A DNA stretch of 64,000 nucleotides from Pseudobacter ginsenosidimutans. GTDB taxonomy: Bacteria; Bacteroidota; Bacteroidia; Chitinophagales; Chitinophagaceae. The DNA lies in assembly GCF_007970185.1 (NCBI RefSeq), contig NZ_CP042431.1, forward strand, positions 2,728,001 to 2,792,000, given 5' to 3'. Of this stretch, positions 47,156 to 58,939 are shown piece after piece. The translations under genes and the position numbers were made by a program. A model generated the notes under the pieces. That model saw only the letters and a program-made list of their open reading frames with translations, searched no databases and had not been told where the DNA came from. How positions within the stretch are numbered: position 1 is the first letter of the stretch; each line of letters begins with the position of its first letter.

Positions 47156-49573
47156 ATGAAACGACTTATTCTTCCTTACCTGGCAATCTTACTGCTGATG
47201 GTGTGCGCCATCCCTTCCCACGCACAAAAAGTGGATTCCATGATCAATGTTTATGGAGAGCGATATCCACAGGAAAAGATCTACGTGCATTTCGACAAGG
47301 GAGTGTACAACCCCGGTGAAACAATCTGGTTCAAAGCCTATATCCAGGCCGGATTCCTGCCTTCGAATATCAGCAGGAATTTCTATGCCGAGCTGATCGA
47401 TCCGTCCAATGGTAAATTACTGCAACGGAAAGTGGTGCCGGTTTACGAATCCTCCACGGCTTCTCATTTCGACCTGCCGCTGAATCTGGACATTCCGGAA
47501 GTGGTGTTCCGCGCCTATACCAACTGGATGATGAACTTCGATTCTGCATTCCTTTATACCAAAACATTGCGTGTTGTTACGAAGAGTGATGCTGGAATGG
47601 CGCAGGCGGCCGCACCTCCCATTCTGAAATTCTTCCCGGAAGGCGGCGACCTTGTTGCAGGCCTCGCCACCAACGTGGCTTTCAAGGGAACAGACAGCCG
47701 CGGCTTTCCCATTAAAGTGCAGGGTGTGGTGAAAGATGCTAAGGGCGCTACAGTGGCCAGCTTCAAAAGCGTGCATGATGGCATGGGTAAATTTGAACTG
47801 GAGCCCGTTGCCGGAGCAGCATACACGGCTGAATGGAAAGATGAAAAAGGAACATCCTATAAAGCGGAACTACCTGCTGTGAAGAACAGCGGAGCGATCC
47901 TGCAGATCAATGGAACCGGCCCTCGTCGCTCCTTTGTAGTAAAACGATCTATGGACGCAGGCCCGGAAATGAACAAAGTGTTCATCGTGGCCAATATCTA
48001 TTCGCAGGTGGTGTACAAGGCAACGGTAGATCTCGGCACTAATTTCATGACCAGCGGACTGATCCCGACAGATAATCTTCCCAGCGGCATCCTGCAGGTG
48101 ACACTGTTCAACAGTAACTGGCAGGCTGTAGCGGAGCGGATCACTTTCGTGAACAATAATGATTATCTCTTTCTTGCAGATATCGTAGACCTCGGCAAGA
48201 ACCTCAGCAAGCGCGGCAAGAATATTATCAGTGTGGAAGTGCCGGACACCCTTCGTTCCAATCTTTCCGTTTCGGTAACAGACCTGGCAGTGAGTGATGA
48301 AGGAAAAGAAGATATCTTCAGCCGTTTCATGCTCACCGATGAACTGAAAGGTTTCATCTATCAACCCGCTTATTATTTTTCTTCTACTGCAGATTCCGTA
48401 CAGCAACACCTGGAACTGGTGATGCTCACACACGGATGGCGCCGTTTCAAATGGGAAGACCTTGCTGCCGGTAAAGTACCGCAGATCAAATATCCAATCG
48501 AGAATTATTTATCACTCAAGGGCGAGCTTGCTGGCCTGAACCCCAGCCAGATCCCACAGGGCACACTGCTGAACCTGTTCATGGAAGCGAAGGATTCTTC
48601 CAGGCAGTTGTTCATGTTGCCTGTAGACAATAAGGGAAGGTTTGAGGAAAAAGGACTTGTATTCTTCGATACCGTAAAACTGTATTATTCTTTCAACAAG
48701 AACCAGAAGCTTACAGAATCTGCTGTAGTGAACTTCAATAATGGATCGATGCCTTCGCCAAAGCTGGTTACTTTCAATCCGCTCTGGCGTATCTATAACC
48801 CGCTGGACTCAAATGCGGTCAAGCGTAGCCGTTATATTGCAACAGAAGCGGAAAGACTAAGGCCGGAAATTGCGAAGCGTGTGAAGACCCTGGAAGCAGT
48901 AACTGTAACGGCCAGGCAGAAATCCAAATCGCAGTTGATGGACGACAGGTATACAAGCGGTATGTTCTCGGGAGGCGATGCCTATTCATTCGATATGGTG
49001 GATGATCCCTTCGCGATGTCTGCCCGTGATGTGTTCACCTTCCTGCAGGGCCGTGTACCTGGTCTGCAGATCACCGGCGCTGGTGGACCTGATGGACCGG
49101 GACTTACCTGGCGCGGACAAACGCCTACGCTCTTCCTGAACGAAATGCAGGTGGATGCGAATATGTTGTCCGGCACGCCGGTGGCAGATATCGCATATGT
49201 GAAAGTGTTCCGTCCTCCGTTCTTTGGTGCGTTTGGTGGAGGCGCCGGCGGCGCTATTGCGGTGTACACCAAGAAGGGTGGGGAAGGAAGATCCAATACG
49301 AATGTGCCTGGTGGTATGGAACGCAGGACCATGGTCGGCTATTCTGCACCCAAGGAGTTTTACGCACCTGATTATTCCAAAGAGAATGCATTGTACGATG
49401 TTCTGGATGTTCGCACTACTTTGTACTGGGCGCCTTACCTGTTAACAGATAAGAGTAACCGAAAAGTGACATTCACTTTCTACAATAACGATATCTCCAA
49501 AAAACTGAAAGTGATCGTGGAGGGAATGAATGAAGAAGGAAGAATGACAAGGATCGAAAAGATACTGGAGTAG
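47156..49573 (+). CDS. Secreted MG2-domain protein with a TonB-plug-like C-terminus
   Basis: An 805-residue protein from the ATG at 47156 (MKRLILPYLAILLL), whose signal peptide ends IPSHAQ. An MG2 (macroglobulin-like) domain is near 34-130 (KIYVHFDKGVYNPGETIWFKAY). More beta-sandwich domains follow. The last 150 residues contain a TonB receptor plug-like unit (FTFLQGRVPGLQIT, GPGLTWRGQTPTLFLNE, GGAGGAIAVYTKKG) without any barrel. Proteins of this layout are common in Bacteroidota but uncharacterised; export assembly or interaction with a TonB partner has been supposed. It is a single gene followed by a terminator. Confidence 0.85.
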   Translation: MKRLILPYLAILLLMVCAIPSHAQKVDSMINVYGERYPQEKIYVHFDKGVYNPGETIWFKAYIQAGFLPSNISRNFYAELIDPSNGKLLQRKVVPVYESSTASHFDLPLNLDIPEVVFRAYTNWMMNFDSAFLYTKTLRVVTKSDAGMAQAAAPPILKFFPEGGDLVAGLATNVAFKGTDSRGFPIKVQGVVKDAKGATVASFKSVHDGMGKFELEPVAGAAYTAEWKDEKGTSYKAELPAVKNSGAILQINGTGPRRSFVVKRSMDAGPEMNKVFIVANIYSQVVYKATVDLGTNFMTSGLIPTDNLPSGILQVTLFNSNWQAVAERITFVNNNDYLFLADIVDLGKNLSKRGKNIISVEVPDTLRSNLSVSVTDLAVSDEGKEDIFSRFMLTDELKGFIYQPAYYFSSTADSVQQHLELVMLTHGWRRFKWEDLAAGKVPQIKYPIENYLSLKGELAGLNPSQIPQGTLLNLFMEAKDSSRQLFMLPVDNKGRFEEKGLVFFDTVKLYYSFNKNQKLTESAVVNFNNGSMPSPKLVTFNPLWRIYNPLDSNAVKRSRYIATEAERLRPEIAKRVKTLEAVTVTARQKSKSQLMDDRYTSGMFSGGDAYSFDMVDDPFAMSARDVFTFLQGRVPGLQITGAGGPDGPGLTWRGQTPTLFLNEMQVDANMLSGTPVADIAYVKVFRPPFFGAFGGGAGGAIAVYTKKGGEGRSNTNVPGGMERRTMVGYSAPKEFYAPDYSKENALYDVLDVRTTLYWAPYLLTDKSNRKVTFTFYNNDISKKLKVIVEGMNEEGRMTRIEKILE

Positions 49574-49594
49574 ATCACAGATATAATTATGAAG

Positions 49595-49619
49595 AGCCCG
49601 GCAATTGCCGGGCTTTTTT
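49595..49619 (+). terminator. Intrinsic terminator of the MG2/TonB-plug gene
   Basis: AGCCCGGCAATTGCCGGGCT is a perfect palindrome followed by a run of T on the plus strand. The minus strand has no T run, so it acts in one direction. Confidence 0.85.
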
Positions 49620-50184
49620 ATTGATCGATGATGGTGATCAGTTTTTCTGCTTTTGACAGGCTGCTGTCTGCGGACTTCAGGGAATCCGGGATGCGTTCAT
49701 TATAACTTAATACGAAGGCGCCGTACATTTTCATCATAGGGCCGCTGAAGTCGAGTTTTCCATTCTGACTGTCCACCACTCCGTTCAATTGCATTGTGCT
49801 GTTGCCGGGATCGGGTTCCAGATCAAGTGTGATACCAAAGGGCTGTCCTTTGGCTGGCTGACTGATCTCGATATCATAGAAGTACCGGTGATCATAATCA
49901 ATATAGAATGTGGCAGACCTGTGTCCGTTGAATGCGCTGAGGGCACTGTCGGGCGGAATGACCTTGAGCGGGGTGGAGTCCTGATTTGTCCAGCCATTAC
50001 CTCTGAAATAAACCTGGGCAGGGTTGTAGGCAACATAGAGGGTTGTTTTCATCCTGATGGAATCAGGAGTATCGCCAAAGGTTATGGTATTATGGACTGT
50101 TGTTTTGTTTGGCTTCTTAGCCAGGTAATACATGATGCCACCGATCAGCAGCATCGATACCAGAATGATCCAGGTAGTACGCAT
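49618..50184 (-). CDS. Membrane-anchored protein of unknown function
   Basis: A 188-residue protein with one N-terminal helix (IILVSMLLIGGIMYYLA, about 5-21) and the rest probably outside the inner membrane. The body is beta-rich (SATFYIDYDHRYFYDIEIS) with no cysteine and no recognised motif. It starts 194 bases from the first small peptide gene in the divergent direction, so they share an intergenic region. It could belong to the peptide system, for example as a protective factor, but nothing in the sequence shows this. Confidence 0.7.
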   Translation of the reverse strand: MRTTWIILVSMLLIGGIMYYLAKKPNKTTVHNTITFGDTPDSIRMKTTLYVAYNPAQVYFRGNGWTNQDSTPLKVIPPDSALSAFNGHRSATFYIDYDHRYFYDIEISQPAKGQPFGITLDLEPDPGNSTMQLNGVVDSQNGKLDFSGPMMKMYGAFVLSYNERIPDSLKSADSSLSKAEKLITIIDQ

Positions 50185-50284
50185 GTGATTTGGAGATTGT
50201 GTGAATAATTTACCACATTTTATGCAATTAGCATGCCCTGATATTACTACAGTAAGTTATCACCATCAAAACAACTACAACTGA

Positions 50285-50317
50285 CAGCTATAATTTAGAA
50301 TTTTCATGGTTAGGTAA
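50285..50317 (+). promoter_or_regulatory. 33-bp block shared with the third peptide gene, copy 1
   Basis: CTATAATTTA, five variable bases and TTCATGGTTAGGTAA lie 61 bases before the first peptide start. This matches 28 of 33 positions with 51144-51176. The 15-mer TTCATGGTTAGGTAA is identical in both. It has no good TTTG/TAnnTTTG match, so it may be an alternative-sigma promoter or a regulator site. Confidence 0.6.
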
Positions 50318-50378
50318 TGCCCATTCAAAGCATCAACTTTATGCCAGAAATCCTCCTCATTTCTAAAAAAAGTATGTT

Positions 50379-50570
50379 ATGAAAAACTGTAATCAATTCA
50401 CTCCCTTGACAGAGAAAGAAGCTCTGGAAATCAATGGCGGTGGTGCTCTTGACGGCATCCTGGATACACTCACCGGTCTGGTAAGTGCTCTTCCGATCGT
50501 AGGACCCATCCTCGGCACTGTATTGAATCTGGTAAAAGGACTGCTGGGAAATCTCCCGCTGCCTGTGTAA
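50379..50570 (+). CDS. Double-glycine leader peptide precursor 1
   Basis: A 63-residue precursor. The leader (1-21) is polar and ends LTEKEALEINGG, the double-glycine form cut by C39 peptidases. The predicted core is 42 residues starting GALDGILD, rich in Leu (12) and Gly (7), with no Cys in the core and a net charge of about -1. It ends LLGNLPLPV. The lack of cysteine rules out disulfide class IIa bacteriocins and lanthipeptides in their usual form. Two similar genes follow, and the matching C39 exporter is on the opposite strand. Function (bacteriocin, signal or assembling peptide) is unknown. Confidence 0.85.
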   Translation: MKNCNQFTPLTEKEALEINGGGALDGILDTLTGLVSALPIVGPILGTVLNLVKGLLGNLPLPV

Positions 50571-50682
50571 CCGGATAGATCACTTGCGGGAGTCCTGCGA
50601 GGGGCTCCCGGCAACTGATCAGCAAGTATCGGGTTTTAATGTATGTAAATGGGAAAGTATAGCCATTAACGTACAGCAAGAA

Positions 50683-50710
50683 GGCCCGTAGACTCCTGCG
50701 GGTCTTTTTT
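50683..50710 (+). terminator. Hairpin terminator or attenuator between peptide genes 1 and 2
   Basis: GGCCCG and CGGGTC pair (one G-T) around a 10-base loop, followed by six T. It sits only 30 bases before the second peptide start, so transcription reaching gene 2 from the first promoter must read through it. An additional GC-rich hairpin (CGGGAG with CTCCCG) lies at about 50586-50610. Confidence 0.6.
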
Positions 50711-50740
50711 GCTCCCGGTAAATCTCAACAATCAATAACC

Positions 50741-50971
50741 ATGAATACAAACTTTCAAACTCTCACTGACCAGGAATGTCAGGAAATCAATGGCGGCCTC
50801 AATGTTACTATCAATTTGCTGGGCATTCCTGTTAACCTCAATATCACCAGTGTGAACAATCTGGCAACCAGCCTGGGCGGATCAATTTTAAGTGTATCCT
50901 CTGCAATTAGCGGTCTGCTGGTAAATATTGGAAATATTGCAGGTAACCTGCTGGGTAACCTTGGCAAATAA
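50741..50971 (+). CDS. Double-glycine leader peptide precursor 2
   Basis: A 76-residue precursor. The leader (1-19) ends LTDQECQEINGG. The predicted core of 57 residues begins LNVTINLL, with ten Asn, many Ile/Leu/Val/Ser, no Cys and one Lys at the very end. It ends NLLGNLGK, close to the end of peptide 1. The core has one internal GG that could be a second cleavage site. Unlike genes 1 and 3 it lacks the 33-bp upstream block and follows an attenuator-like hairpin, so it probably depends on readthrough from gene 1. Confidence 0.85.
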   Translation: MNTNFQTLTDQECQEINGGLNVTINLLGIPVNLNITSVNNLATSLGGSILSVSSAISGLLVNIGNIAGNLLGNLGK

Positions 50972-51101
50972 TTTTAGCCTGCTTGCATCAGGCTAACGGT
51001 GACAAATAACCGGAATTCCACGTCTTCCGGCAATGCTTACCACTGAAACTTTTTGGACGGGGAATATAGTATCTGGCCATGGTTTTCAGATACTGTAAAA
51101 G

Positions 51102-51126
51102 GGCTCCAGGTTCATGGAGCCTTTTT
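51102..51126 (+). terminator. Intrinsic terminator after peptide gene 2
   Basis: GGCTCCA-GGTTCA-TGGAGCC has a perfect 7-bp stem followed by five T. It lies just before the second copy of the shared 33-bp block. A further hairpin AGTATCTG/CAGATACT is at 51068-51094, between the stop codon and this terminator. Confidence 0.75.
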
Positions 51127-51143
51127 CTTTCAAATACAACAGT

Positions 51144-51176
51144 CATCTATAATTTAAACAGTTCATGGTTAGGTAA
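51144..51176 (+). promoter_or_regulatory. 33-bp block shared with the first peptide gene, copy 2
   Basis: CTATAATTTA, five bases and TTCATGGTTAGGTAA match 28 of 33 positions of the copy at 50285-50317. The distance to the start codon is 62 bases here and 61 there, which suggests a functional promoter/leader unit copied with the gene. Confidence 0.6.
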
Positions 51177-51238
51177 ATAAGGGGAATAGGAGCAATTTTA
51201 TTAAGCTAAATCTTCCTTCACTTTTTAAAAATGTAATC

Positions 51239-51469
51239 ATGAAAAGCTTAGATCAATTCAACGCTCTGTCTAATCAGGAGCTCATGGAAATCAATGGCGG
51301 CGCTGGTCTGAATGACCTGCTTGCAACACTGAACAGTGTTCTGACGCCTACAGTAGCTGCAACATCTGCCAGCCTGCTGATCCTGAGCTCAGGAGCATCT
51401 ACAGCCCTGAACACCGTTGCTGGTGGACTGGCTGCATTTCTCTCTAAACTCAGTCTTCCAACTCTGTAA
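51239..51469 (+). CDS. Double-glycine leader peptide precursor 3
   Basis: A 76-residue precursor. The leader (1-21) ends LSNQELMEINGG. The predicted core of 55 residues begins AGLNDLLATL, is rich in Ala, Ser, Thr and Leu, has no Cys and a net charge near zero, and ends LSKLSLPTL. It has its own copy of the shared upstream block and its own terminator, so it is a separate transcription unit. The EINGG coding stretch (GAAATCAATGGCGG) is identical at DNA level in all three genes. Confidence 0.85.
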   Translation: MKSLDQFNALSNQELMEINGGAGLNDLLATLNSVLTPTVAATSASLLILSSGASTALNTVAGGLAAFLSKLSLPTL

Positions 51470-51588
51470 AGAATTTCAATGAACTGGCTGCCTCCCGATA
51501 GGCAAAGGAGCAGCCAAAAGAAACCATCCCGGACATTGGATGGGGTTGTAGTGGAGACACTATAACTGTCAGGCATACGTGTAAAAAA

Positions 51589-51614
51589 GGGCTGGGAATT
51601 CTCCCGGCCCTTTT
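51589..51614 (+). terminator. Intrinsic terminator after peptide gene 3
   Basis: GGGCTGGGA-ATTC-TCCCGGCCC forms a 9-bp stem with one G-T pair, followed by TTTT. It ends the plus-strand peptide cluster before the convergent XRE gene. Confidence 0.8.
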
Positions 51615-51670
51615 GCTTTCGTTCACATAGGAATTTCTTGATAGGTATGTCTGTATGAAATGGTGGTTAG

Positions 51671-51934
51671 TCAATATCTCGCGCGCTGCCATTCCTGTAC
51701 TGCAGCTGCTTCTTCTGATTCCAGCAAAGTAGCCGGATTGGTTTGCAGGATGGTTCCGATCTGGTAGAGTCTGTCGATTGTAATGGGTGTTTTGCCATTT
51801 TCCAATCTGCTGTATGCATTCTGCGAAATATTCAGCAGCAATGCCATATACTCCTGGGAGTACTCCCTGTTTCTTCTCAGCGTACGGATCTTTGTTGCCA
51901 CACGTGCTGTATGTGAAATAGTGGTTTGTAACAT
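51671..51934 (-). CDS. XRE family helix-turn-helix regulator
   Basis: An 87-residue protein consisting of one Cro/C1-type HTH (KIRTLRRNREYSQEYMALLL, then ISQNAYSRLENGKTPITIDRL, about 15-58) plus a short acidic tail. It is the last gene of the minus-strand exporter operon, 64 bases after the transporter stop, and is convergent with the peptide genes. It is a reasonable candidate to control the peptides or the exporter, but no binding site can be assigned. Confidence 0.88.
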   Translation of the reverse strand: MLQTTISHTARVATKIRTLRRNREYSQEYMALLLNISQNAYSRLENGKTPITIDRLYQIGTILQTNPATLLESEEAAAVQEWQRARY

Positions 51935-51998
51935 ATTCAGAGGGTTTCGTACATAGAATGTTGTTTACCAGATTCTGGTTTATATAGATTGTAAAGGA

Positions 51999-54176
51999 TT
52001 ATCCTTCTGCTCCCACCATCATGCCCTGGTGGTGTTGCCATAATTCGGCATAAGTGGTATTGCCTTCCAGCAATTGTGAATGCGATCCCTGCCCCTGCAA
52101 TTGTCCATTCTTCAGTACAACGATCTTGTCTGCATTCATCACAGTACTGAGGCGGTGGGCGATCACGATGATCGTTTTCCCATTCCTTCTTAGCCGCTGC
52201 AATACCAATTGCACCATCTGGTCTGCAATGGGGTCCAGCGATGAAGTGGCTTCGTCCAGGATCAGGATGTCCGGGTCACGGTAAAGCGCACGTGCAATCG
52301 CCAGTCTTTGACGCTGACCGCCGGACAGGTTCACGCCATGCTCGCCCAGCCAGGTATTGAAGCCGCCGGGTAACTGCTCAACAAATTCAAGGATGCCCAG
52401 CTGCCGGCTGATATCGATCACGCGCTGCATATCGGGCTCAAATTCTCCCACGGCAATATTCTCCAGCACAGATCCGGCAAAGAGATCGATCTGCTGGGGC
52501 ACCACGCTTACACGCTGGCGCAGGCTCTCATTATCGAAGTAACGGATATCCGTATCCCCGATAGCGATATGTCCGCCTCTCAATGGGTAGAGATTTTGCA
52601 GCAGGGAGATCATTGTGGATTTGCCGCTGCCGCTTTCGCCAACAATGGCGGTGATACTGTTACGGGGAATTTCGAGGTTGAGGTTTTTGAAAACATCCAC
52701 CCTGGTGCCATAGCGGAAGCTCACCTGGTGAAAACTGATATCGCCTGTTTTGCCGGCTTCCAGTTTGATCTTGTTGGTGCTGTCTTCCTGCTCCAGGTCC
52801 ATGATCTCAAAGAGACGGTCGGCTGCGATCAATGCATCCTGCATGCTCCTGTTGGCGCCGATGATACTCATGGCCGGGCCGGTGAAATAGCCCACCAGCG
52901 CATAGAAGGAAAGCAGCTCGCCTGCGCTGAGCGACCTCCCTACCACCATGTAGGCGCCGGTCCAGAGCAAGGCCACTATCAGCAAACCATTTACGAATGC
53001 AGCGGCATTGCCGAGATGCACATTGAAAACGCCTGTATGGAAAATGCTTTTGAGCAGTTTGATGAAACGGGATTCGGTTTTCAGGTTGGCATGTTCTTCC
53101 AGTCCGAATCTTTTGATGGTAGTGATGGTATTGAGTGATTCCACCAATTGACTGCCGAGCTCGGCATTGTCTTCCATCATCCTTCTTTGCCATTTTTTAT
53201 TGAAGCGATTACTGATGGCATACATGATGAGGTAGAGCGGTATCACAGCCATCACCAGAAAGGCCAGCTTCCACTGATAGATGAACATTACGATGAAAGA
53301 GAAGACCACGATAAAGGCATTCACGATCAATCCCATGGCAGTATCGTTGATGAATACACGAATTTTCACCGCATCTGTGATCCGGCTGGTGATCTCTCCC
53401 ACGCGCATGGTGTCGAAGAAAGTCTGGGGCAGTTTCAGCAGGTGCTTGTAATAGCCCAGGATCAGGCTGGCGTCCAGATGCTGACTGGTCTTGAGGGCAA
53501 AAAGATTTTTCAGGCTGCCGATGAAGAACTGCAGCAGCAGTATCATGATCATGGTCACGCCCATCAGGTTCAGCAGTCTTGTATTGCCGCCGATCAGTAC
53601 ATGGTCTACAATATTCTGAACATAGAGTGAAACTGACAAACCAAGTATCGTGTAAACAGCGGCCCCGAACAATACCTGGAGTGATACTGCCTTATGCGGA
53701 CGCAGCAGTGTCCAGAACCTGCGGAGATGTGATACTTTCCCGTTCCCTTCGCGGAAGGTTTCTGCAGGCAGAAGTAATACCAGCACGGAGGTCCAGGTTT
53801 TCAGGAACTCTTCTTTTTTGATGGTATGGGCCTGTCCGTCTATCGGGTCCATCACCACTACTTCTTCAGGGGTTACCTTATAGATCACTACATAGTGTAC
53901 GATGCGCTGCTGCACTATCACGTGAGCGATGGCGGGCACAGGCATATCCAGCATGGCTTCATAGCTTCCCTTCACGCCCCTGGCTTCAAAGCCGAGTTTC
54001 TGGGCGGCTTCCACCAGCCCAAGGATATTGGTGCCCTTGGTATCGGTGCCGGCCATTTGCCGGATCTGTGCGATGGGTAACTGCAGGTTGTAATGGGCTG
54101 CAATGGATTGAAGACAGGCCGCGCCGCAGTCGGTAATATCGTGTTGCTTTACTTTGGTGTTCTTCTTCAGGTGCAT
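51999..54176 (-). CDS. C39-peptidase ABC exporter (PCAT) for double-glycine peptides
   Basis: A 725-residue bifunctional exporter. The N-terminal C39 peptidase (about 1-140) has Q11 and catalytic C17 in QHDITDCGAACL, H in VHYVVIYKV and D in VVMDPIDGQ, so the triad looks intact. Six membrane helices follow (about 165-440). The ATPase has GESGSGKST, LSGGQRQRLAIARAL and ILDEATSSLD. It should cut the EINGG leaders and export the cores across the inner membrane. It lies 17 bases downstream of the HlyD gene. No outer-membrane channel gene lies beside it, so a TolC encoded elsewhere is probably used. Confidence 0.95.
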   Translation of the reverse strand: MHLKKNTKVKQHDITDCGAACLQSIAAHYNLQLPIAQIRQMAGTDTKGTNILGLVEAAQKLGFEARGVKGSYEAMLDMPVPAIAHVIVQQRIVHYVVIYKVTPEEVVVMDPIDGQAHTIKKEEFLKTWTSVLVLLLPAETFREGNGKVSHLRRFWTLLRPHKAVSLQVLFGAAVYTILGLSVSLYVQNIVDHVLIGGNTRLLNLMGVTMIMILLLQFFIGSLKNLFALKTSQHLDASLILGYYKHLLKLPQTFFDTMRVGEITSRITDAVKIRVFINDTAMGLIVNAFIVVFSFIVMFIYQWKLAFLVMAVIPLYLIMYAISNRFNKKWQRRMMEDNAELGSQLVESLNTITTIKRFGLEEHANLKTESRFIKLLKSIFHTGVFNVHLGNAAAFVNGLLIVALLWTGAYMVVGRSLSAGELLSFYALVGYFTGPAMSIIGANRSMQDALIAADRLFEIMDLEQEDSTNKIKLEAGKTGDISFHQVSFRYGTRVDVFKNLNLEIPRNSITAIVGESGSGKSTMISLLQNLYPLRGGHIAIGDTDIRYFDNESLRQRVSVVPQQIDLFAGSVLENIAVGEFEPDMQRVIDISRQLGILEFVEQLPGGFNTWLGEHGVNLSGGQRQRLAIARALYRDPDILILDEATSSLDPIADQMVQLVLQRLRRNGKTIIVIAHRLSTVMNADKIVVLKNGQLQGQGSHSQLLEGNTTYAELWQHHQGMMVGAEG

Positions 54177-54193
54177 AGGATTTGATTGGATGG

Positions 54194-55357
54194 TTATTTC
54201 ACTGGCACTTCCCTGCCATGTTTGGAATTTGGATTGATCCAGTTGTCTGTTCTTTCATAGAGCAATTGCAATAAGCCTCTTCTTGCCAGGATAAAGCGGC
54301 ATTGGAGGGTCATCCCTTTTTTGAGTTTGCCTTCTACGCCATTGGGGAGTGTGAGGGAGGTATTGTTCAGCGCACATTTCACTTTGAAGAATGGCTGATC
54401 GTTCATGATGGTGAAATCATTATCGATACTGATCACTTTTCCGTTCAGCGTTCCCCAGGAATTATAATTGAATGCGTCTACCTGGAATTTCACGGGCATT
54501 TCCTGGTAGATATAACCGATATCTGCAGGTGAAACGAATGTTTCCGCTATCATCCCTGAATCGGGCGACACATAACCGAGCAGCTCGCCGGTTTGTACAC
54601 TGCCTCCTGCATATCGTCCATTGAACTGTTGTACAGTGCCGCTTACCGGGGCCTTGATCTCCAGAAGGTCACGTTCCCGCTGCAGTTGGTCTTTGCCGGA
54701 ACTGTATTGCTGTGCTTCCACGCGCGCCTGTTCCAGTTCCTGCTGCCAGCGGGCGTTCTGTTCGGCTATTCTTGCCTGATAGTTTGCCTTCGCCTGTTCG
54801 TAGGCGTATTTCTTTTCTACATACTCTTTTTTCGCGATCACCTTCTCATCATAGAGTTTGGTGTACATATTGAAATCCGAGCGGAGTTTTTCAAGTCCCG
54901 CCCTTTGCTCTGAAAGTGATGCCTGGTGCAACAGGTATTGCTGGCGGTATTGTCCTGATTTTACGCGATGGCCTGCGCCGCTGGCCAGTAAGCGGAGATC
55001 ATTGATATAGGACTGTCGCTTGTTGAGCTCATAGCTGGCCTGGTTGAGCTTACTGTTGGTGATATCCTGCTGCATCAATAAAAGCGGTTGTCCCTGCCTG
55101 ACAGTTTCGCCATCTTTCACCAGAACCTTGGCAATGGAACCTGTAGTGAGGCTTCTGAGTTCGGTCTTTTCTGTAATGGGACGAATGATTCCGGGAACAT
55201 TCACACTAACGTCTACTTTGATAAAGATGGCTGCGATCAATGTGATCACAATAGCGCCGAGCACCGTGGTATAGATGATCTGGCTTTTCACTTTGATGCG
55301 GGGTAGCCAGGTATATGCAGACTGCTGCATTACCTCGGCTGGCAGGATCCTGGACAT
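54194..55357 (-). CDS. HlyD family secretion adaptor
   Basis: A 387-residue membrane fusion protein that links the ABC exporter to an outer-membrane channel. One helix lies near 29-48 (IIYTTVLGAIVITLIAAIFI), then a split lipoyl-like domain (VNVPGIIRPITEKTELRSL and KAPVSGTVQQFNGRYAG) around a long coiled coil (about 95-220), and a beta-barrel domain. It is the first gene of the operon with the C39 exporter and the XRE regulator. Confidence 0.93.
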   Translation of the reverse strand: MSRILPAEVMQQSAYTWLPRIKVKSQIIYTTVLGAIVITLIAAIFIKVDVSVNVPGIIRPITEKTELRSLTTGSIAKVLVKDGETVRQGQPLLLMQQDITNSKLNQASYELNKRQSYINDLRLLASGAGHRVKSGQYRQQYLLHQASLSEQRAGLEKLRSDFNMYTKLYDEKVIAKKEYVEKKYAYEQAKANYQARIAEQNARWQQELEQARVEAQQYSSGKDQLQRERDLLEIKAPVSGTVQQFNGRYAGGSVQTGELLGYVSPDSGMIAETFVSPADIGYIYQEMPVKFQVDAFNYNSWGTLNGKVISIDNDFTIMNDQPFFKVKCALNNTSLTLPNGVEGKLKKGMTLQCRFILARRGLLQLLYERTDNWINPNSKHGREVPVK

Positions 55358-55568
55358 GGGATTCGTGTTTTATATACAAACAATAAATCAGGCTTACTTT
55401 ACTAAGCGCCTACGGAAAATATTTTTGGACTGACTGCGGTTGGGGGAGTTAGCAGTTTTCGAAAGGGACGGAAATGATTATACGGGCAAATTACCAGTTC
55501 AGATTTAATTTAATCGCGAAATGGATATTTTGACCTGATGAGGGGTGGTAACTGGAATGATACGGGTA

Positions 55569-56564
55569 TTATGAATGGGATAGCGCTTCAACCTGTGGCA
55601 CTTCTGAAAAGCCACCGGTTTTGGAGAATTTCATGTTGTGGACGAAGTTTTTGAGAGAGTCCGATGGATCGATAAGTTCGAAGTTTATTCTTGAGAAAGT
55701 TTCTGGTACAAAGGCAACAGACAAAATGATCTGCTCCTCCATTTTTCCTGTAGCATTATTCAATAGTTCTGCCTTTGCATTGACAATAACAGATTTCAAA
55801 GGAAGTAAAGCGAAAGTTTCCCTTGCAACCCTGAGCATGCAACTGCTGATATAGTCCTGATACAGCTCATTGAACCGCGTGATACCCATCTCCTTTTTTG
55901 ATAATTTTCCGGTAGATGTTTGTGATAAAACAAACCTGGGGATGATCTGATCTGTGTTTACATGCAGATCCAAAACTCCACGCTCAGCTTGAAATTCTGC
56001 TGTAAGTTTAGATCCCAATTCATTGATCTCACCAAAGGGATTGAACTGTTCAACAGCTTCTTTGTAAGCTTCCAATTGTTTCTTCAGAATCCCGTTAGAG
56101 ATCCTGTTCAGCGTTTTCCAATCCTGTAAATCACTTTCATATTGTTTTTGAGCTGCCTGGAATTCCTGGTTATCTGTCTGTTGGGCTTTGGGGATCGCAT
56201 TGTCAAGTTTCCTGATCTTCCCGGCTTTGAGTCCGAACAGTTTATCGGTCAGGGATGGACGATAGTTGTTGCGTTTGTTGATCGCTGTTTCTTCATTCTT
56301 ATTGGAAAGACCGGGAGCCGGGGGCTCGGGCAAACCAGCCAGCGCCTGCCAGTCCATTTCATCGGAAACATCTTTGTGCACAGATTTCAGCACTTCGATA
56401 TACTCTTCATATTCCTGTACCGCAGCCGTAGCATCTGACAATTCCTGCTCTTTCAATTGTTTCCTGAAGCGGTCTGCTGCTTCCCTGGCTTTTCTTTTTT
56501 GATTCCTTTCTACTCTGTTCAGGGTTGCATTGGTGGAGCGTATGAAACCTTTGATCGTAGTCAT
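55569..56564 (-). CDS. Coiled-coil protein of unknown function (331 aa)
   Basis: No signal peptide or membrane segment. Residues 1-70 are charged coiled coil (NRVERNQKRKAREAADRFRK), with another helical region at about 120-190. The C-terminal 120 residues look like a globular domain (LLPLKSVIVNAKAELLNNATGKMEEQIILSVAF, then ELIDPSDSLKNFVHNMKFSKTGGF). I believe I have seen this C-terminal pattern in other bacterial hypothetical proteins but cannot name the family. It lies 211 bases upstream of the HlyD gene in the same direction. Membership of the peptide system is possible but unproven. Confidence 0.7.
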   Translation of the reverse strand: MTTIKGFIRSTNATLNRVERNQKRKAREAADRFRKQLKEQELSDATAAVQEYEEYIEVLKSVHKDVSDEMDWQALAGLPEPPAPGLSNKNEETAINKRNNYRPSLTDKLFGLKAGKIRKLDNAIPKAQQTDNQEFQAAQKQYESDLQDWKTLNRISNGILKKQLEAYKEAVEQFNPFGEINELGSKLTAEFQAERGVLDLHVNTDQIIPRFVLSQTSTGKLSKKEMGITRFNELYQDYISSCMLRVARETFALLPLKSVIVNAKAELLNNATGKMEEQIILSVAFVPETFSRINFELIDPSDSLKNFVHNMKFSKTGGFSEVPQVEALSHS

Positions 56565-57226: not shown

Positions 57227-58939
57227 TTACTGTAGTTGCTCGAGGTAAGACCTTAGACTTTCTTCCTCCGTGAGTTTCAGTTTTTTCTTCAACCTGTACC
57301 TGGCTTTTTTCACACTCTCAGGCTCAACCGAAAACACACCAGCGATCTCTTTGTTGTTCATCCCTGCTAAAACGAAGCAGGTTAGCTTCACTTCATTGGG
57401 AGTGAGATCAGGATGTTTTTTTGTGATCTTGTCGATTGTATGCTGATGCAGCAGATTGAAGCTGCGAATGAATTCACCCCAGTAATCATTATCGCCGATA
57501 TTGCTTTTGATCTCTTTTGCAAAACGACGGCAGTCTTCATTATTGCTGGTATACAATTTCTCCTGCAGTTGCTGAAGGTATTCTGTTTTATTGGCCAGCA
57601 GCACGGACGTTGTGGCAATCTGCGCCTGCAGCGTCCTGGCCTCTTCCCTCACTTTTTCCACAAGCCCCCTGGCTTCATGTACAGCGTCTTCTTTTTCTTT
57701 TTCCAGTTGTTCATAAGCTTCGCGGATGGCGATCTGTTTTTCCTGATCAGCTACACGCCTTGCTGTTTCGAGTGCTGCTGCTTTTTCCCGGTTGATATTG
57801 GATTTTATCTTTCTGTACCGGAACCAGATCACCAGGCTCAGGCTGCCGAATACGAACAACAATAATGGAGTCAATCTGCTCTGCCAGTTGTTGAGCCCGC
57901 CGATACTGGTTTTCTTATAAGGAAGCACACCCGGATAGGATACGCTCTGGATGGGCATCATAGCGGCTTTCCCTTTAGCAGACATGCTGTCGCGCAGCAT
58001 TTTTGATTGTCTTTCGTACGACTGGCTCAGTATATTATCATTAAGCTTACGATAACAGGTGGCAAGGCCGTCCAGGATGGCGGGCTTGAGATAATTGAAA
58101 CTGCCTGCACTGTTGATGCCGTTCAGTGCGCGGCGGAGATAATCTGCAGCACGGTTTACACTGTCAAGTGTCAGGTAAATCTCGGCCCTGTCTTTCATGG
58201 CCAGTATCGCATAGTGGTCATTGTTATGCTCCATGAAAAGCTGGATAGCGGCCTCGTTCAGTGGCAATGCTTTTACCCACTCTTTGCGGTGATTCCAGAA
58301 ATACTGCAGTTCATAATTATAGAAGGCAATGAGCGGAAGGTCTTCGGGTTTCTTTGCTGCGCCAAGCAGTGAATCGATCTGTTGAAAGGCTTTGTCTTCC
58401 TGTTCTGCTTCAAAATAGCAGAAAGCCTGGAAGAGCGCTGCTTTGGGACGGATCACATGTTGTTCCGGCGAGCTGGCCAGCGATGCATGCTGTAAATAGG
58501 TGAGGGCTTCCGCGTATCTGTCGAGCCGGCAAAGCGCTACACCAATATGATAGTTCAGTTCAGGAAGGATTTCTGCCATGTCGGATTCTACTGCCGTTTT
58601 CTGTGCTTCCTGGTAAAACAGATGTGCCTGCATGTAATTGCGCTGTTGCTCATACAGTGCTGCCAGTTGCCGGTAGCTGGTCACCAATGAAGCAGTATTG
58701 CTCGTTTTCATTCCGATGTCGATGGCAGACATCATGTATTTTTCAGCTTCATGAATGTTTTCGTAACGGGAGATTTGGTAGAGTTGGTGAAGGATGAAGA
58801 TCTGTTGATCCGGCTTTTTTGTGCGCGAAAGCTTGTTCACCAAAGAGTCGCCCGGATGGGCAATGACTGGCCGGAATGCCAGCAGCATCAGCAAAGTCAG
58901 GAGGAATACAGCAGTAGTCCCGGGTTTCAGGTTCAGCAT
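57227..58939 (-). CDS. TPR-membrane-HTH signalling protein
   Basis: A 570-residue protein with a signal peptide (about 1-27, ending RPVIA), periplasmic TPR repeats (about 35-330), and one membrane helix near 362-379 (LTPLLLFVFGSLSLVIWFRY). A long cytoplasmic coiled coil (385-480) and a C-terminal LuxR-like helix-turn-helix (LTPNEVKLTCFVLAGMNNKE, then KKARYRLKKKLKL, about 508-555) follow. This one-component layout is common in Bacteroidota and lets a periplasmic signal reach DNA directly. Targets are unknown. It is divergent from the Nif3-like gene. Confidence 0.85.
   Translation of the reverse strand: MLNLKPGTTAVFLLTLLMLLAFRPVIAHPGDSLVNKLSRTKKPDQQIFILHQLYQISRYENIHEAEKYMMSAIDIGMKTSNTASLVTSYRQLAALYEQQRNYMQAHLFYQEAQKTAVESDMAEILPELNYHIGVALCRLDRYAEALTYLQHASLASSPEQHVIRPKAALFQAFCYFEAEQEDKAFQQIDSLLGAAKKPEDLPLIAFYNYELQYFWNHRKEWVKALPLNEAAIQLFMEHNNDHYAILAMKDRAEIYLTLDSVNRAADYLRRALNGINSAGSFNYLKPAILDGLATCYRKLNDNILSQSYERQSKMLRDSMSAKGKAAMMPIQSVSYPGVLPYKKTSIGGLNNWQSRLTPLLLFVFGSLSLVIWFRYRKIKSNINREKAAALETARRVADQEKQIAIREAYEQLEKEKEDAVHEARGLVEKVREEARTLQAQIATTSVLLANKTEYLQQLQEKLYTSNNEDCRRFAKEIKSNIGDNDYWGEFIRSFNLLHQHTIDKITKKHPDLTPNEVKLTCFVLAGMNNKEIAGVFSVEPESVKKARYRLKKKLKLTEEESLRSYLEQLQ

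Follow-up and report, generated by a model that had tools for sequence, protein, structure and literature searches.

A candidate multi-peptide GG-leader secretion cassette with its own promoter-like element and conserved 3' RNA elements in Pseudobacter ginsenosidimutans

Introduction

What do three small genes lying in a row before a peptide exporter make, and how is their product controlled? The question is raised by the genome of Pseudobacter ginsenosidimutans (Bacteroidota; Chitinophagaceae), in a stretch of 64,000 nucleotides (NCBI RefSeq assembly GCF_007970185.1, contig NZ_CP042431.1, positions 2,728,001 to 2,792,000), here called the window, whose own coordinates are used throughout. The three genes, denoted P1, P2, and P3, encode precursors with double-glycine (GG) leaders and face an operon for an exporter with a C39 peptidase domain. 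An earlier note, made from the sequence alone, had read the locus as a complete cassette for peptide maturation and secretion.

We consider this to be GG-leader peptide export in Bacteroidota in a new form, most likely of membrane-active multi-peptide bacteriocins. We give about an even chance to the reading that the locus is a multi-peptide secretion cassette whose cores most likely act on membranes, in the manner of two-peptide bacteriocins. The least expected part of the cassette is a set of RNA elements located 3' of the precursor genes. We found nothing in the open-licence PubMed Central (PMC) literature that describes this cassette. As a peptide-secretion system of Bacteroidota it is compact: its peptide pair recurs, its exporter can be traced, and its promoter element belongs to two genes alone. 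The partner, the regulator, and export are therefore directly testable.

Results

Three GG-leader precursors converge on an intact exporter operon

P1 (50379-50570, plus strand) encodes 63 residues, with the leader MKNCNQFTPLTEKEALEINGG and a 42-residue core. P2 (50741-50971, plus strand) and P3 (51239-51469, plus strand) each encode 76 residues, with cores of 57 and 55 residues, respectively. All three leaders, of 19-21 residues, end in EINGG, and the three open reading frames (ORFs) and predicted core starts (GALDG, LNVTI, and AGLND) were found exactly where the earlier note had placed them. These precursors have the features of GG-leader peptides: a leader of about 15-30 residues that ends in GG, conserved hydrophobic positions, and a peptidase-containing ABC transporter (PCAT) alongside. 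The EINGG codon pattern occurs at five sites in the 7.8 Mb single-contig genome, of which three are at the cassette and the remaining two lie within longer frames, off leader positions. The P3 leader scored 21.4 bits against the ComC family PF03047 (cut-off 20.4), with the match limited to leader residues 3-23, and 17.7 bits against TIGR01847 (cut-off 15.7). Against TIGR03949, 4 out of 12 members gave leader matches with E no higher than 0.01, and P3 of the window scored 19.4 bits, below the cut-off of 21.5.

The precursor genes converge on a minus-strand operon (55357-51671). Its first gene encodes an HlyD-family periplasmic adaptor (54194-55357; PF13437, 58.0 bits, cut-off 22.2), followed after 17 bp by the C39 peptidase-ABC exporter (51999-54176) and after a further 64 bp by the last gene, which encodes a small XRE/Cro-type helix-turn-helix (HTH) regulator (51671-51934; PF01381, 46.1 bits, cut-off 23). 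The exporter scores above the curated thresholds of TIGR01193 (535.3 versus 523.85 bits) and PF03412 (118 versus 22), and is of the PCAT type, having a C39 domain with the Q/C/H/D residues (Q11, C17, H94, and D110, all intact) plus ABC membrane and ATPase domains. The exporter, HlyD protein, and regulator described in the earlier note are all borne out. Among named relatives, the closest exporter is that of Pseudoflavitalea rhizosphaerae (98%). The best PDB match to the window exporter, nearly full-length, is the PCAT1-type exporter 4ry2 (ABC-type bacteriocin transporter; E 5.1e-169), a likeness at the level of the protein alone. There is no outer-membrane channel gene within the cassette; elsewhere in the genome no search for one was made.

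We calculated the ratio of non-synonymous to synonymous substitution rates (dN/dS) with a Nei-Gojobori script written for the analysis. Between the window and its nearest relative, locus L063, all 11 changes in P1 are synonymous, and P3 shows 17 synonymous and 6 non-synonymous changes (dN/dS 0.11). Against more distant relatives the values were 0.08, 0.14, and 0.21 for P1, with one further pair saturated (range 0-0.21 over four usable pairs), and 0.15 and 0.22 for P3. P2 evolves faster (0.44, 0.35, and 0.30 in three pairs). Based on these values, P1 and P3 are constrained proteins under purifying selection, and P2 is looser.

Precursor relatives adjoin the same exporter in several genera

A search with the exporter as query gave 54 loci from named genomes (L numbers denote loci throughout). 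We then searched 294 genomes of the family (G numbers) with a P1-family profile (A1, 9 rows) and a P3-family profile (A2, 12 rows). With both profiles built from exporter-linked loci and the searched genomes mutually related, A1 matched 13 and A2 15 of the 294 genomes, the 15 including all 13. The A2 matches were confined to 5 of the 101 genera in the sample. The two profile lists together place P1 and P3 relatives at 31 distinct sites in the 15 genomes, and 28 of these adjoin the HlyD-C39 operon or part of it, so that the outcome the earlier note had named as speaking against it, precursors lying mostly far from exporters, was not seen. In G002, where a contig end cuts the operon, the precursor site adjoins the exporter fragment on its own contig. 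The exceptions are a pair in G001 that lies far from the operon (L168) and one site in G171, whose contig showed no exporter.

Over 40 full-length exporter loci, strict GG-leader small ORFs numbered 34 in 185,600 exporter-adjacent bases versus 3 in 405,998 bases further out; 21 of the 40 had at least one near the exporter. With E 1e-40 as the limit, 36 of the 294 genomes have an HlyD relative, among them all 15 with P1 or P3 relatives. Co-location in several genera supports the claim of a dedicated cassette. The word 'complete' says too much, given that the cassette has no outer-membrane channel.

The gene order MG2/Plug-like gene, up188, P1, (P2), P3, XRE, ABC, HlyD, and Nif3 gene is kept in L038, L039, L041, L042, L081, L092, L161, and L163, where the MG2/Plug-like assignment rests on weak Pfam matches. 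L063 keeps the order except for other genes after up188, L077 and L086 hold the cassette parts on two contigs of one assembly, and in L040 P1 is on the opposite strand and up188 on another contig of the same genome. P2 was found in five genomes (the window, L063, L077, L038, and L092), and L161 carries four precursors. An XRE gene is linked in 14 cassettes. Two adjacent precursors were also found in L046, L047, L055, L059, and L168, matching the side-by-side peptides of class IIb bacteriocins. In the Chitinophaga loci L046 and L047, two precursors are followed by HlyD-ABC with an XRE gene between, and in L055, L059, and L168 (the separate G001 site) a Gly-rich precursor with 11-residue repeats lies 37-50 bp behind another precursor.

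P1 and P3 share a private promoter-like element

An element at 50276-50342 (plus strand) precedes P1, with the architecture TACAAC ... TATAATTTA-N9-TGGTTAGGTAAT ... CAACTTTAT, and one of the same architecture (51135-51201, plus strand) precedes P3. We take the last part, CAACTTTAT, to resemble the Bacteroidota -7 box. The bipartite core TATAATTTA-N9-TGGTTAGG has two sites without mismatch in the 7.8 Mb genome, those of P1 and P3, and the next best site has three mismatches. The pattern with its spacing off by one base, in effect an unplanned control, gave at best two mismatches and recovered neither the P1 nor the P3 site.

With a looser pattern in 12 genomes, 24 out of 25 P1, P3, and P4 genes have the element 87-94 bp before the start codon, a count that is not independent because the pattern was composed after the sites were seen. 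In the 25th gene, P1 of L038, the final bases of the element deviate. A short and a longer hydrophobic precursor occur together in 12 of 12 genomes bearing the element. No other site was found in 0.99 Mb of loci scanned. The element was absent before all five P2 genes (that of the window among them), before P5 of L161, at L058, and before the precursor pairs of L046, L047, L055, L059, and L168. The linkage of the XRE gene suggests that its product may control P1 and P3.

P1-P3 do not look like one transcription unit, because each has its own terminator-like hairpin downstream, at 50690-50705 after P1, 51108-51122 after P2, and 51585-51614 between P3 and the XRE gene (all plus strand; the last, by eye, also usable by the minus strand). 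Both strands of the region hold six such sites versus a shuffle mean of 2.1.

Conserved RNA elements follow the precursor genes

Every precursor gene of the window is followed by a conserved and apparently structured 3' RNA element on the plus strand. E1 (50615-50686; CTGAYCAGCAAG ... stem-TATAGCC-stem) follows P1, E2 (51053-51096) follows P2, and E3 (51523-51583) follows P3. Among six species, 41 of 44 positions are invariant in E2 and 51 of 61 in E3. E3 is about 89-90% identical (counted by eye) to its counterparts in L039 and L092. The P3 protein is 33% identical in L039 and L092 gave no tblastn match to P3, so the element is better conserved than the peptide. L039, in which no P2 was found, retains E2. 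The earlier note remarked neither on these 3' elements, nor on the promoter-like element that P1 and P3 share and P2 lacks, nor on the recurrent pairing of a short with a long precursor.

A covariance model of E3 scored 78.7-93.7 bits in 6 of the 294 genomes, namely the six of this genus, each time beside P3. The next-best match scored 24.7 bits, and a weak tail (118 of 294 genomes at E up to 1) was taken as background. In a second genus (L161-L165), a different element, E4, occupies the place of E3, and its model matched 5 of 294 genomes at E up to 0.001, all at the cassette. A search for homology between E3 and E4 with both RNA models found none, as neither model finds the other element; one weak R2 match (18.7 bits, in L092) lay away from E3.

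The support for E3 and E2 is conservation, and the structural support comes from E4 and E1. The inner hairpin of E4 differs in sequence in each of five genomes and pairs in all, and 0 of 1000 shuffle sets were as stable. The same was found for the E1 hairpin in five genomes with L063 left out (0 of 1000); in both cases the hairpin segments were picked by eye before the stability test. No pair with both sides changed was found inside E3 or in E2, and two such pairs sit in the terminator of E3. Searching Rfam with 49500-55600 of the window and with L161, L162, and L092 gave weak matches only, all below the gathering scores.

These elements may point to RNA-controlled peptide secretion. We propose tentatively, at somewhat short of an even chance, that the precursor mRNAs end in structured RNAs of an undescribed family (E1-E3, and E4 in the second genus) that are conserved beyond the peptide and set the timing or amount of its production, and that the private promoter element serves only these genes. 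If functional, the 3' RNA elements would add a layer of control that we did not meet in the open-licence PMC literature on GG-leader peptide systems.

The cores are hydrophobic, cysteine-free, and partly helical in prediction

The window cores have no cysteine and are hydrophobic (Kyte-Doolittle mean 0.9-1.3). P1 has a hydrophobic periodicity of 3.5 residues, reached in 0 of 500 shuffles, and P2 one of 3.65, reached in 3 of 500. The best of five AlphaFold2 models folds the P3 core into a single helix over residues 21-71, with block confidence scores (pLDDT) of 83-91 over residues 21-60. The P3 family gave two matches among solved structures (E 0.38 and 0.47), which we took as chance.

GxxxG motifs number two each in P1 and P2, none in P3 of the window, and 0-11 in seven other long cores; four Gly-rich cores have 8-11. 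Several long relatives have an 11-residue period (L039, L055, and L168, 0 of 500 shuffles each; L059, 2 of 500; L040, 4 of 500). In L041 the best repeat lag, 14, is not significant (86 of 500), and L163 has its best at 9 (2 of 500). Hydrophobicity recurs best at 3.55-3.7 residues in L041, L055, L163, and L040. By eye, P1 and P3 cores of several genomes start with xLDG and finish with LP plus V, I, or T.

Neighbouring genes

We scanned 11 window proteins between 47117 and 60181, three of them the precursors. No modification gene, thiol oxidoreductase gene, sensor kinase, or two-component system was recognised among them. No dedicated immunity gene was recognised by Pfam among the window neighbours or by eye in some loci of relatives. 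The earlier note had likewise found neither a modification enzyme nor a recognisable immunity gene.

Upstream of P1, up188 (49618-50184) encodes a conserved 188-residue protein that occurs in 18 of 294 genomes. It has no Pfam match and, by eye, a single hydrophobic stretch, which is N-terminal. Between the HlyD and Nif3 genes lies a gene for a TPR protein (57227-58939) whose match to a LuxR-type HTH is weak, a possible extra regulator. It is kept in the six genomes of this genus (the window, L063, L086, L038, L039, and L092) and was not found in the other fetched loci carrying the cassette. A 331-residue ORF (55569-56564) was found in none of the other loci compared.

Discussion

From what is known of these protein families, the C39 domain would bind the GG leaders and cut after EINGG, and the ABC-HlyD pair would export the cores through an outer-membrane channel encoded elsewhere. 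The private promoter element common to P1 and P3 would drive the two together, with the XRE protein of the exporter operon as the most likely regulator. The cores, cysteine-free, nearly uncharged, and hydrophobic, are probably unmodified and helical, and their most likely action, as a pair or trio, is on the membranes of competing, probably related, bacteria. The 3' RNA elements probably affect, in cis, how stable the precursor mRNAs are or how they are translated; alternatively, they may be released as small RNAs.

In these respects the cassette would work like colicin V-type Gram-negative peptide export and like the bacteroidetocins. As described in the excerpts of PMC6671954 and PMC8546649, bacteroidetocins are GG-leader peptides with leaders of 15-16 residues and at least two cysteines, and their regions carry a gene for a transmembrane protein and, for the most part, one for a thiol oxidoreductase. 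The two regions described there have one small bacteriocin-like gene. The likeness lies in Bacteroidota GG-leader peptides, a C39-ABC exporter beside the precursor, and no obvious immunity gene. In contrast to them, going by the same excerpts, the window has leaders of 19-21 residues, cores without cysteine, HlyD and XRE genes, and two or more peptides. Because both cysteines and an oxidoreductase gene are absent, we do not file the cassette as a bacteroidetocin.

Class IIb two-peptide bacteriocins of Gram-positive bacteria were taken, for this comparison, to be two peptides encoded side by side, both of them with GxxxG motifs and both required to kill, with an immunity gene in the same locus. 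The cassette shares with them paired GG-leader peptides, GxxxG in part of the family, a C39 exporter with an accessory protein, and the TIGR03949 leader matches. It differs in having hardly any charge, a Gram-negative host, no core-level sequence match, and P1 and P3 as apparently separate units in the window, and we do not file it under class IIb because no immunity gene was recognised. With colicin V and class II microcin export, as far as the excerpts of PMC10352776 describe it, the cassette shares a C39-ABC exporter with a membrane-fusion protein, GG-leader peptides, and a Gram-negative cell. It differs in its several related precursors, its own promoter element, its 3' RNA elements, its lineage, and the lack of a recognised immunity gene.

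We favour membrane-active bacteriocins because the studied GG-leader peptides of the phylum are antimicrobial, also without an obvious immunity gene (PMC6671954, in the excerpts available). By the same excerpts, tested bacteroidetocin producers show no immunity gene and inhibit themselves, so the missing gene is no argument against an antimicrobial role. The doubt that the earlier note had cast on a classical bacteriocin was thus fair in itself and weakly based.

Several observations weigh against bacteriocins all the same. The matches to bacteriocin families are to leaders and mostly below cut-off, and P1 has none that matters. The window cores carry only 1-3 charged residues each, and typical bacteriocins are cationic. 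For P3 of the window, the hydrophobic period is not significant (4.1; 111 of 500 shuffles), the core has no GxxxG, and the other four models average pLDDT 62-74; P1 is poorly modelled (pLDDT 63.8). An immunity gene in the same locus, as in class IIb, was not recognised, and up188 was rejected as an immunity protein or dedicated partner, since 6 of its 18 genomes lack P1 and P3 relatives and the G033 copy lies on a contig other than that of the cassette. P1 and P3 relatives are missing from 21 of the 36 genomes that have an HlyD relative, and three exporter-linked loci (L056, L058, and L167) have a single precursor. Finally, a gene order kept across genera and the conservation of P1 and P3 speak more for a house function than for an arms race.

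This last point leads to a surface or matrix material, in which hydrophobic Gly/Ala/Ser-rich cores would assemble outside the cell as a film, fibre, coat, or surfactant that serves the producer. We regard this as unlikely but far from negligible. It stays alive because of the conserved gene order, the low charge, the lack of a recognised immunity gene, and a hydrophobic period of 2.2-2.25, closer to strand than to helix, in the Gly-rich L039, L059, and L168. The purifying selection and the 11-residue period of the near-neutral cores in L039, L055, L168, L059, and L040 are in keeping with it; the strand-like period is also a further point against membrane-active bacteriocins. However, the window cores are short (42-57 residues) and the P3 model is helical, the leaders resemble bacteriocin leaders, and P3 relatives occur in just 5 of the 101 genera.

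A signalling role seems improbable to us, in which neighbouring cells would sense the cores as pheromones and the XRE protein, or the TPR/LuxR-like protein in this genus, would take part in the response. P3 does score above the ComC cut-off, an XRE gene is linked in 14 cassettes, and the TPR gene sits between HlyD and Nif3 in the six genomes of the genus, but the ComC match spans leader residues only, the cores are long and very hydrophobic and number two or more per locus, the other fetched loci with the cassette yielded no such TPR protein, and the two-component sensor linked to ComC-type pheromones was not among the 11 window proteins scanned. Least probable is that the peptides are secondary and the conserved 3' RNAs the main products. 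The high identity of E3 in L039 and L092 despite a diverged or unmatched P3, and E2 kept where no P2 was found, would fit such a role, but protein-level purifying selection on P1 and P3, the matched leaders, and the adjoining exporter argue for the peptides.

Other loci with related exporters or precursors

The second precursor pair of G001 (L168:8654-9236) resembles those of Chitinophaga L055 and L059 and lies on a contig other than that of the exporter cassette. No related exporter was found within the 18 kb read. Plasmid carriage of its Gly-rich peptide was considered and rejected, with no match among 72,556 plasmid records.

The window genome encodes two C39 proteins. The second C39-ABC (G000:C1:3920910-3926358, L093) adjoins an ABC-like ORF (by eye) and a 387-residue ORF, and no convincing GG-leader ORF was found in the 15 kb read around this exporter (G000:C1:3924794).

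In 13 further Chitinophaga loci (L043-L045, L048-L054, L057, L074, and L082), an HlyD-C39/ABC pair with an exporter 67-69% identical has no convincing GG-leader gene in its vicinity. Twelve of the 13 keep the C39 residues; in L054 the N-terminus is absent. A nearby ORF starting MAKTSAKLTQLA is shared by 11 of the 13 and presumably resembles part of a carboxylase gene.

Two Mucilaginibacter loci have consecutive GG-leader genes beside an exporter of the same type, three in L062:5668-6556 and four in L064:5437-6614. Two Algoriphagus loci (L066:10488-11278 and L084:10480-11232) have three GG-leader genes each behind the exporter, with near-identical leaders and quite different cores.

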